Source of the DNA: a virus
IMG/VR virus record: IMGVR_UViG_3300042544_000985
Coordinates: 1-37,235 of that record
DNA: 37,235 nt
Strand: one strand, 5' to 3'
The notes beneath the pieces are model-generated. The model did not search any database, was not told where the DNA came from, and saw only the letters and a list, made by a program, of their open reading frames with translations. Position 1 is the stretch's first letter; each line of letters begins with the position of its first letter. Below, piece after piece: positions 11,329-13,575 of this stretch. A program made the position numbers and the translations under genes.

Positions 11329-12231
11329 ATGTTTAAATTACCAAAAGAACATTTATCTGTATCACAGATTAACCTATGGGAGAGCGATCCTATTGCCTAC
11401 CAAAAGAAATACTTTATCGGCATTCCCGATCCTCCTTCGCCTTTCCTTGAATTTGGCAAACAATTTGCAAAGGACATAGAAGATTATGCTGCCGGTGTTC
11501 AAAGAGATTTTAACTTTCCAGAAGGATTTTTAGACATGACTTTAATTTATCCTTACGTAGAATATAAATTAGAACATGATTTTGGAGACTTTAAAATGCT
11601 TGGCTATATTGACAATATGAGTAAAGATTATGAACTTGTAGTTGACTTTAAGACAGGCACTGCTCCATGGTCAACACAGCGACTGCAGGAATCTTTGCAA
11701 ATGCAAACTTACTCTTTAATATTGTGGTATAAATTTGGAGTTATTCCGACTTCTATTATATCATACTGGAAAACAAAACTGCGAGGCAAAACCTTGTCAT
11801 GGGCTGGTGAGCATGAGAGTTTTATGTATGTATTTAATACAGAGGAATTAACTGCAACAGAAGCAAGGATAAAGAAGGCAGCGAAAGAGATTAGCGAGGC
11901 ATACGAAAGATACCAGGATAGCTACATTGGTGAATTGATGGCAAGGTATGCGGAGATTACAAAAGAGTTAAAGGATTTGGAATATAGAAGAGATAAAAAT
12001 AAAAATCAGTTGACACTTTTACTAAAGGACAATAAAATGGCTATGGATGTACATGGTTGTTTAGTATCTTATTCTACTTATAAAAGAAAGTCATACACCT
12101 TTTCTAATAATATAATAGATAAGGAATATGAGATTGAACAAATGAAAAGAGAGGAAATAAATACTGGTATAGCGGAAGAGAAAACAAAAACAGTCACACT
12201 TATATTAGTGAAAGATGAAGGAGTGGAATAG
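11329..12231 (+). CDS. PD-(D/E)XK nuclease, RecB/Cas4-like
   Basis: 300 residues. The motifs run in order: LSVSQINLWESDP (9-21, the first helix of the RecB nuclease family), FLEFGKQFAKDIE (39-51), GYID (92-95, Asp 95), LVVDFKTG (103-110, Asp 106 and Lys 108) and LQMQTYSLIL (123-132, Gln motif IV). These are the metal and catalytic residues of PDDEXK_1 nucleases. The last 100 residues are a Lys/Glu coil (ITKELKDLEYRRDKNKNQL). Phage relatives serve as recombination exonucleases or in DNA degradation. No Cys cluster is seen, so it is not a Cas4 iron-sulfur type. No annealing protein (RecT/Erf) is evident next to it. Confidence 0.82.
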   Translation: MFKLPKEHLSVSQINLWESDPIAYQKKYFIGIPDPPSPFLEFGKQFAKDIEDYAAGVQRDFNFPEGFLDMTLIYPYVEYKLEHDFGDFKMLGYIDNMSKDYELVVDFKTGTAPWSTQRLQESLQMQTYSLILWYKFGVIPTSIISYWKTKLRGKTLSWAGEHESFMYVFNTEELTATEARIKKAAKEISEAYERYQDSYIGELMARYAEITKELKDLEYRRDKNKNQLTLLLKDNKMAMDVHGCLVSYSTYKRKSYTFSNNIIDKEYEIEQMKREEINTGIAEEKTKTVTLILVKDEGVE

Positions 12232-12625
12232 TAAGATGTTAGAGATACAGGCATTCTGCGACGAAGTAAACGCCTGGATAACTACTGCACCATCTGCAGA
12301 AATGTTGGATGAGTGCGATGATTACCTCCGACAGTTATCTGCCTACTATTCAAGGTACACAGTGATAAGTGGAATGAACGAAAGTATCTTTGCCCAAATG
12401 ATGATGAGTTGCATTCGTGATATGCCAGAGGAGGAGTACAAAAGAGTTAAACACTCCTCCACATTAACCGATTTTTACGTGAAAGGGAAATACCCAAAAG
12501 CTACGGCAATTTTCGAGCAATGTAGGGCGGTTCAAAAGTTATTACTCGTAACTTCCGATAATTATCGAACATTGCTTAGTAGCTTTCGGCAGGAAAGAAT
12601 ATTGGTCGGTCACATGACTACATAA
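12215..12625 (+). CDS. Hypothetical protein downstream of the nuclease
   Basis: 136 residues from ATG 12215, which overlaps the nuclease gene by 17 nt; an alternative ATG at 12236 gives 129 residues and avoids the overlap. It is all-helical (ECDDYLRQLSAYYSRYTVISGM, QMMMSCIRDMPEEEYKRVK, TAIFEQCRAVQKLLLVT), Met/Cys-rich and soluble. Position suggests a partner of the nuclease, but nothing identifies it. It is the last gene before a 293-nt non-coding stretch holding structured RNA. Confidence 0.65.
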   Translation: MKEWNSKMLEIQAFCDEVNAWITTAPSAEMLDECDDYLRQLSAYYSRYTVISGMNESIFAQMMMSCIRDMPEEEYKRVKHSSTLTDFYVKGKYPKATAIFEQCRAVQKLLLVTSDNYRTLLSSFRQERILVGHMTT

Positions 12626-12633
12626 AATATTTG
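12602..12633 (+). promoter_or_regulatory. Weak candidate promoter for the tRNA-like RNA
   Basis: TTG at 12602-12604, 21 bp, then AATATTTG at 12626-12633 (one mismatch to TAnnTTTG). It overlaps the end of the preceding gene. RNA would start near 12640 and cover the inverted repeat, the tRNA-like element and possibly thyX. Confidence 0.3.
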
Positions 12634-12643
12634 CAGACCTCGG

Positions 12644-12691
12644 AGTTAAGTGAAGTGTATGAGCGGATTAAACATTTCTTTCGGCTTAACT
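12644..12691 (+). repeat. Inverted repeat upstream of the tRNA-like RNA
   Basis: AGTTAAG at 12644-12650 is perfectly complementary to CTTAACT at 12685-12691, with a 34-nt loop. A shorter hairpin GCCTG/CAGGC follows at 12713-12729, just before the tRNA-like acceptor stem. An ATG in the loop (12659) opens a 43-codon frame that runs through the tRNA-like D arm; I regard that frame as chance. Confidence 0.4.
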
Positions 12692-12733
12692 GCGTCAGAG
12701 GATGAATTGGCAGCCTGGAATAGACAGGCAAAT

Positions 12734-12856
12734 AGCAAGGTGGCGGAATTGGTAGACGCAAACAACTGCAATCAGGTATGTGAACCCTGACGTTAAACAA
12801 AAAGCTATCAACGCAGGAGTGCGGATGTTATGCAGGTTAAAATCCTGCCCTTGCTA
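12734..12856 (+). ncRNA. tRNA-Leu-like RNA with a branched arm replacing the anticodon arm
   Basis: Acceptor stem AGCAAGG/CCTTGCT (12734-12740 with 12849-12855, 7 bp) is followed by discriminator A; CCA is not encoded. TG at positions 8-9 and a D arm GCG/CGC with the classic leucine D loop (12743-12759) come next. The T arm is GCAGG/CCTGC (12832-12836 with 12844-12848) with a 7-nt loop TTAAAAT and joins the acceptor directly. Between D and T arms, 72 nt replace the usual 30 or so. AACAACTGCA (12761-12770) pairs with TGCGGATGTT (12820-12829) over 9 of 10 positions including one G-U. Inside are TCAGG/CCTGA (12772-12790) and CGTT/AACG (12791-12813). No normal 7-nt anticodon loop fits. The T loop has A where C56 is expected. 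Confidence 0.72.
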
Positions 12857-12865
12857 ATTTTAAAT

Positions 12866-12929
12866 CTCTCTTAAACCTCTCTTAAATGTCTAATAAATGT
12901 CTAATAAATGTCTAATAAATGTCTAATAA
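12866..12929 (+). repeat. 11-bp tandem repeat carrying start codons before thyX
   Basis: Four exact copies of ATGTCTAATAA start at 12886, 12897, 12908 and 12919. They are preceded by two related copies of CTCTCTTAAA at the same 11-bp spacing (12866, 12877). Each unit has an ATG; the first three open frames of only 8 to 9 codons, and the fourth is in frame with thyX. Confidence 0.85.
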
Positions 12930-12930
12930 A

Positions 12931-13575
12931 ATGAAAGTAGAACTTTTAGAAATATTTGGAAACGATGACATGGTAGCAACGGCCGCCCGCGTTTCATTCG
13001 GCAAGGAAGCCAGCAATTACACTGTGGAGCAAAATGAGAAGCTGATAAAATACCTTGCAGAGCACAATCACACCTCTCCATTTCGCCATCCACAATTACA
13101 ATACCGGATAACCTGCCCTATTTATGTAGAAAGGCAATTATTTAAGCACCAGGTAGGATTGACTGCTAATAGTATATCTGGAAGGTATGTAGATTTTAAA
13201 GATAATTATTACAAGATAGATAATTTCAGAATTCAAAGTAAAAGTAGTAAGCAAGGCAGCGGAGAAGATTTAAAGCCATTTTATAACTATGAAGCACAAA
13301 GGATTCAAAACCTTGTAATAGATTATTGTTCTAATGCTTATAAAGAATTACTTGAACTTGGTGTAGCAAAGGAACAGGCGCGTACTATTTTACCTTTAAA
13401 TTTGGAAACTACTTTTATCTGGACAGGAAGTTTATTAGCTTACATTAATTTTTGGAAGCTAAGAATCACAAGAGATACACAAGCCGAAACAATGCAAATA
13501 GCCCAGGATATGCTACATGAATTAAAGTTACGCACAAATAGTTTTGAGCATTCACTAAAAGCATTTCATATATGA
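12931..13575 (+). CDS. thyX: Flavin-dependent thymidylate synthase
   Basis: 214 residues from MKVELLEIFG. An in-frame ATG in the last repeat unit (12919) would add MSNK. ThyX signatures are clear: HTSPFRHPQLQYRITCPIYVERQL, then NSISGRY with the catalytic-region serine, EQARTILPLNLETTFIWTGSL, and FWKLRITRDTQAETMQIA. The enzyme makes dTMP from dUMP using FAD, NADPH and methylene-tetrahydrofolate. The usual RHR of the ThyX motif reads KHQ here (FKHQVG), a notable change in residues that contact dUMP and FAD. It leads a nucleotide cluster with the genes at 13572 and 14131; its stop overlaps the next ATG. The repeats before it may tune translation. Confidence 0.92.
   Translation: MKVELLEIFGNDDMVATAARVSFGKEASNYTVEQNEKLIKYLAEHNHTSPFRHPQLQYRITCPIYVERQLFKHQVGLTANSISGRYVDFKDNYYKIDNFRIQSKSSKQGSGEDLKPFYNYEAQRIQNLVIDYCSNAYKELLELGVAKEQARTILPLNLETTFIWTGSLLAYINFWKLRITRDTQAETMQIAQDMLHELKLRTNSFEHSLKAFHI

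Follow-up and report, generated by a model that had tools for sequence, protein, structure and literature searches.

A putative class of phage RNAs that combine a complete tRNA body with a structured domain in place of the anticodon arm

Comparison of viral sequences points to a class of phage RNAs in which a complete tRNA body carries, in place of the anticodon arm, a structured and often pseudoknotted domain (the cargo). Members of one phage lineage have a conserved predicted cargo domain, and different lineages have unrelated ones. At least about 180 distinct units composed of a tRNA shell and a cargo were detected in viral contigs by pattern scans, in very different phages. A tRNA body that lacks the decoding arm, keeps a conserved elbow and bears a highly varied, exchangeable domain matches no RNA class that we found.

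Results

The element at positions 12734–12856

The window, the whole stretch of 37,235 nucleotides that was analysed, is a viral contig of 37 kb; its genes include one for a phage capsid, thyX (flavin-dependent thymidylate synthase) and one for a dCTP deaminase. The tRNA-like element is flanked by a 136-aa ORF (12215–12625) and by thyX (12919–13575); its entire length (12734–12856, + strand, as for all features below) matched the Rfam tRNA family RF00005 with 37.7 bits (gathering score 29; E-value 1.4e-4 for the window and 3.4e-8 for the record). The alignment left 58 nt unaligned at the place of the anticodon, and ARAGORN made no tRNA call for 12734–12856. The 5' strand of the acceptor stem, AGCAAGG (12734–12740), forms 7 of 7 bp with 12849–12855; the 3' strand CCTTGCT and the discriminator A73 occupy 12849–12856, and CCA is not encoded. 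Nucleotides 8–25 (12741–12759) form a leucine-type D arm, TGGCGGAATTGGTAGACGC, with the A14, A15, G18, G19 and A20a that are common to most of the 148 units described below; the D stem is 3 bp long and invariant in the window family. The T arm, GCAGG-TTAAAAT-CCTGC (12832–12848), has 5 of 5 bp and an A instead of C56. These exact stems, together with the RF00005 match, bear out the tRNA-Leu-like geometry proposed in the initial annotation. The latter also placed 72 nt with a folded domain between the D and T arms, and this was confirmed: the cargo (12760–12831) stands for nt 26–48 and replaces both the anticodon and the variable arm, its last nucleotide (12831) being the U48 of the 15–48 tertiary pair. 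The single-sequence MFE of the element was unremarkable (z −1.2), so the case for it rests on comparison.

About 35 related contigs were gathered via their thyX and exonuclease neighbours. The same inner domain as in the window was present in seven related contigs, in five distinct versions including that of the window. The 72-nt cargos of these five variants were 4–14% divergent, compared with 27–40% for thyX, next to the unit, at its four-fold degenerate sites; this puts cargo divergence about 2–8 times below that of neutral sites of the neighbouring gene. Conservation extended to the loops. Because of this difference, the comparison suggests that the inner domain is under purifying selection; cassette exchange between phages could also raise the apparent conservation of the cargo over thyX without selection.

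Within the window family, the T arm was supported by two double-compensated pairs. A 10-position helix (12761–12770 with 12820–12829), proposed to take the place of the anticodon stem, is present in the window copy; its lower four pairs (12761–12764/12826–12829) were unpaired in 9 of 20 cells across the five variants and are thus unsupported, and its upper five pairs, CTGCA (12766–12770) with TGCGG (12820–12824), showed no variation in the five variants, so that the helix is only half conserved. Inside the cargo, the pairs of a hairpin TCAGG-(9 nt)-CCTGA (12772–12790) were also invariant in the five variants, and a possible second hairpin, CGTT...AACG (12791–12813), is weak: 95% of cells are paired, and a single variant has one broken pair. 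For this cargo type, the inner fold is plausible but unproven. The missing C56, to which the initial annotation had drawn attention, is real in the window copy and is not a general property: it was found only there and in a near-identical contig (L059), all four divergent relatives having TTC (T loops TTCGAAT, TTCAAGT or TTCGATT).

RNAalifold indicated that the window D loop TTGGTAG (12749–12755) could pair with CTATCAA in the cargo (12805–12811), nearly invariant in the five variants. Such pairing was rejected as a general feature, as across cargo families it was not enriched but rather depleted; this depletion is consistent with an intact elbow.

Size and distribution of the class

Viral contigs in IMG/VR were scanned for a leucine-type D arm followed, at too great a distance, by a T arm. 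At least 148 distinct units with a leucine-type shell, of 83–154 nt, were found in 125 loci, and they sort into 24 multi-member cargo families plus 77 sequences without a related cargo. A scan with class-I D arms added 63 units, of which 28 form the set with intron-like inserts described below and 35 remain. More than 100 cargo families are unrelated to one another. Two or more units were present in 23 of 185 loci.

Among 396 Bacteroidota genomes, a single one, that of Sphingobacterium cellulitidis R-53603, has such a unit; it lies in a prophage (NOUX01000008), next to a 1545-aa gene resembling a tail tape-measure protein, and the other 395 genomes gave no pattern match. Within the sequences covered here, the class is thus viral. 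Two archaeal matches were set aside, since they look like ordinary intron-bearing tRNA-Leu, and annotated phage records searched for relatives contained no full match. No recurrent partner gene was observed, the largest neighbouring gene family being found in 7 of 125 loci; the machinery that serves the units would therefore probably be that of the host.

Evidence for a genuine tRNA body

The scan pattern fixes only positions 6–7 of the acceptor 5' strand. Acceptor pairs 1–5 covary across the 148 units, with changes on both sides, and when the acceptor filter was omitted, 107 of 122 pattern matches still paired at 7 of 7 positions and 115 of 122 at 6 or more of 7. Nucleotide 48, which lies outside both search patterns, is U in 144 of the 148 A15 shells and C in 62 of the 63 G15 shells. 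The predicted 15–48 tertiary pair is thus kept in the class, as A-U or G-C depending on the type of shell. In conclusion, the units have a 7-bp acceptor, a D arm, a T arm and the 15–48 pair of a tRNA. Two other origins were discarded: a D arm and a T arm taken from two adjacent tRNAs of an array, which is ruled out by the matched and covarying acceptors, and a tRNA pseudogene, which is ruled out by intact pairing and by evolution that is not relaxed.

The leucine-type shell raises the question of a leucine carrier, charged by the host LeuRS and acting as a non-decoding leucine donor or as a titrator of LeuRS or EF-Tu. A15-U48, G18G19, A20a and A73 constitute the E. coli leucine identity set (PMC9976931), and among 20 units that represent 16 unrelated acceptors, U48 was found in 20 of 20 and A73 in 16 of 20. 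A73 is present in 119 of the 148 leucine-type units; A20a, G18G19 and C56 are forced by the search pattern and do not count as evidence. The acceptors of these units usually begin with A1-U72, and most tRNA-Leu genes of the same contigs start with G1. Against a leucine carrier, however, the main scan is biased to leucine-type D arms, the site that the window unit occupies also hosts class-I D arms and even an acceptor-only type, A73 is replaced by G73 in two of the five variants of the window family, and the window copy lacks C56 (G19–C56). Such a role is possible for leucine-type members and is not general; as an account of the units we consider it unlikely.

No anticodon arm and no intron

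An anticodon arm with a 7-nt loop was not found by ARAGORN, by Rfam alignment or by the isotype test. With introns allowed, ARAGORN called most units, and the isotypes were as scattered as those obtained with shuffled cargo. Excision of a segment restored a canonical anticodon arm in 2 of 148 units, compared with 1.3 for shuffles, and units of 83–90 nt, which have no room for an intron, are still without an anticodon arm. An intron or a hidden anticodon is ruled out by the excision test and the random isotypes, and the earlier statements that no 7-nt anticodon loop fits and that ordinary decoding is not the use of this RNA hold.

A separate set of phage tRNAs detected in the class-I scan carries an insert of 42–50 nt in the anticodon stem, at one fixed position between nt 28 and 29 (L295, L279, L344, L310, L300, L349, L296 and L334). 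Removal of the insert yields Ile(UAU), Asn(GUU), Lys(UUU), Asp(GUC), Pro(UGG) or Ile(GAU) in 10 of 28 cases, compared with 0.15 for shuffled sequences. These inserts have a common hairpin followed by ACAGCAA and are far shorter than group I introns; each looks like a mini-intron.

It could be proposed that the units are decaying or intron-bearing tRNA genes, since the shell resembles tRNA-Leu and the distinct set above does carry inserts; the initial annotation had considered a tRNA relic with an insertion. This proposal conflicts with acceptors that are intact and covarying, with the kept 15–48 pair, with a cargo apparently under purifying selection and with units too short for an intron, and excision restored an arm at the level of shuffles in the units whereas it did so well above that level in the insert-bearing set. 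Decay or an intron is highly improbable, and is refuted at the level of the class.

The cargo domain

Pairwise covariation was scored within true homologous cargo families. The cargo is typically closed by a stem that stops two nucleotides short of the T arm; this stem reached −8 kcal/mol or lower in 52 of 118 families, compared with 16 for shuffles. In L083/L202, four of the five pairs of this closing stem were double-compensated, and in L248/L255/L127 a covarying stem is accompanied by conserved motifs that are single-stranded. A crossing stem (H-type pseudoknot) of −16 kcal/mol or lower was found in 28 families versus 5.2 in shuffles (maximum 10 in 60 shuffles), and one of −18 kcal/mol or lower in 17 families versus 2.1. 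In the clearest cases the third pseudoknot loop is A-rich, although the signal is modest. Taken individually, about two thirds of the cargo families do not have a strong pseudoknot, and in the window cargo the best crossing pairs are not kept in all variants, so that a pseudoknot is not proven for the window copy. No target of a cargo emerged, and antisense action on the phage's own genome was ruled out because complementarity is at chance, the longest complement being 11 nt, the same as for shuffled cargo.

Inner domains with extra T-arm-like hairpins, for example ACGGTTCGAGTCCGT, were observed in L021/L079/L271/L306 and in L086 (from 10909).

Possible functions of the units

We lean, at slightly less than even confidence, towards a natural tRNA scaffold that undergoes tRNA-like processing and carries a fast-changing effector RNA as cargo. 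The host would mature the unit like a tRNA, by RNase P, 3' processing and CCA addition, and the product would be a stable RNA unable to decode. The tRNA body would be a scaffold that confers processing, stability and recognition, and the inner domain would be the interchangeable part that does the work, most likely by binding a protein in phage–host conflict. Leucine-type members might in addition be leucylated, because the anticodon arm is dispensable for bacterial LeuRS: the E. coli enzyme still charges tRNA-Leu deprived of its anticodon and variable arms (PMC9976931). The scaffold is favoured because the cargo of the window family is conserved in sequence, because different cargos stand side by side, and because the type of shell varies at one site. 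A broader version, held a shade more tentatively, is that the tRNA body is an evolvable scaffold with more than 100 unrelated cargos at the anticodon position, exchanged between phages as arsenals of effectors or decoys against host defences.

The idea of a tRNA decoy, already put forward in the initial annotation, remains a live explanation and a close rival of the scaffold. The elbow and acceptor would occupy or soak up a tRNA-recognising host factor (a tRNA-cleaving defence nuclease, a toxin that modifies 3' ends, or LeuRS), and the cargo would be a cleavage-resistant plug for the anticodon or variable region, changing fast under an arms race. OLD reportedly removes the anticodon arm of tRNAs, according to a report cited in PMC13096335. 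Ordinary tRNAs are also present in 50 of the 125 loci, with at least five of them in 14. Known defences cut tRNA in the region that is replaced in the units: Septu and retron-Eco7 cleave the variable loop of tRNA-Tyr, and the T5 tRNA-Tyr escapes cleavage by virtue of a distinctive variable loop (PMC13096335). The leucine identity elements are retained (PMC9976931). However, a mere plug should not need a conserved sequence, loops included, as seen in the window family, nor the conserved single-stranded motifs and covarying stem of L248/L255/L127, and several different cargos per phage would be unnecessary. We regard a decoy as possible rather than probable.

If the units are effectors, as in the scaffold reading, nature would have its own version of the laboratory tRNA scaffold, and the units would offer many unexplored viral RNA tools. 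If they are decoys, their existence would point to an immunity directed at tRNA that acts against phages, probably those of Bacteroidota.

Comparison with known RNAs

The units share with class II tRNA-Leu the acceptor, the D and T arms, A15-U48, G18G19, A20a and A73; they differ from it by the lack of an anticodon arm and by a structured, often pseudoknotted domain in place of the variable arm. Like tmRNA, they combine a tRNA-like end with another structure, including pseudoknots, where the anticodon arm would be. The resemblance to tmRNA noted in the initial annotation is correct in this respect, but it is only a loose analogy: the units keep a D stem, are much shorter, have no conserved reading frame (ATG frames are sporadic, and absent in 48 of 118 families) and gave no Rfam tmRNA match, and the window copy has C-G in place of G3-U70. 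Plant-virus tRNA-like structures and bacterial Y RNAs (YrlA) also represent tRNA mimicry by non-decoding RNA; in contrast to them, the units do not form the terminus of an RNA genome and have no pseudoknotted acceptor. When the window and 20 related loci were searched for YrlA/Y RNA, plant-virus tRNA-like structures and other families, only RF00005 reached its gathering score, and an Rfam search around the element at E ≤ 5 added only a chance U4 match.

The tRNA-Tyr of T5 and T6, which confronts tRNA-cleaving defences, is likewise a phage-made tRNA body near tRNA arrays with a change in the targeted arm; it decodes, whereas the units cannot. In the engineered tRNA scaffold, a recombinant RNA is inserted at the anticodon arm, and a foreign structured RNA thus replaces that arm of an otherwise intact tRNA, as in the units. 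By analogy, this would be the nearest functional picture, with the difference that the units are natural, viral and provided with more than 100 different inserts.

No description of a comparable class was found in Rfam or in the open papers searched. The class would have been missed so far because gene finders call the units faulty tRNAs or nothing. Standard annotation overlooks them: ARAGORN in default mode called 23 of 148 units, and the isotypes it assigned were mostly scattered or undefined.

The insertion site

In the window, the stop of the 136-aa ORF is directly followed by a structured RNA (element A, 12626–12729), which ends in a terminator-like hairpin GCCTG/CAGGC. Element A is kept in more than 35 related contigs, 7 of its 20 pairs are double-compensated, and an Rfam search with it gave no match. 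The unit sits directly 3' of its terminal hairpin, where unit-less relatives have a T run. At the equivalent site, related phages have no unit (for example L014, L018 and L024), one unit, or several in tandem, and tandem units differ in their inner domain and even in the type of shell. About 20 types of unit were counted at the window's site in relatives and closely similar contigs, some of them with a class-I D arm. The empty and filled sites after element A resemble the outcome of cassette insertion.

The acceptor-only type consists of a unit of 86–87 nt in L110, L117 and L119 (AGCAAGGTGGTAAAAATTAATCTGCG...CCCCTTGCT), in which the D and T arms are not recognisable. Further conserved intergenic elements that are not tRNA-like are interspersed with units in L004, L006, L013, L021, L085, L098 and L110; examples at the same site are GCCCTACAAATGGCAGACGTTAAACCAGAG...GGAACGGTGT and ...GAGTGACAGCCTGGAAAGACAGGC. 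The gap between the window unit and thyX (12857–12918) is filled by short direct repeats, with three copies of TGTCTAATAAA after CTCTCTTAAA units. Unit-less relatives mostly have other sequence upstream of thyX, and similar repeats occupy this position in many of the unit-bearing relatives.
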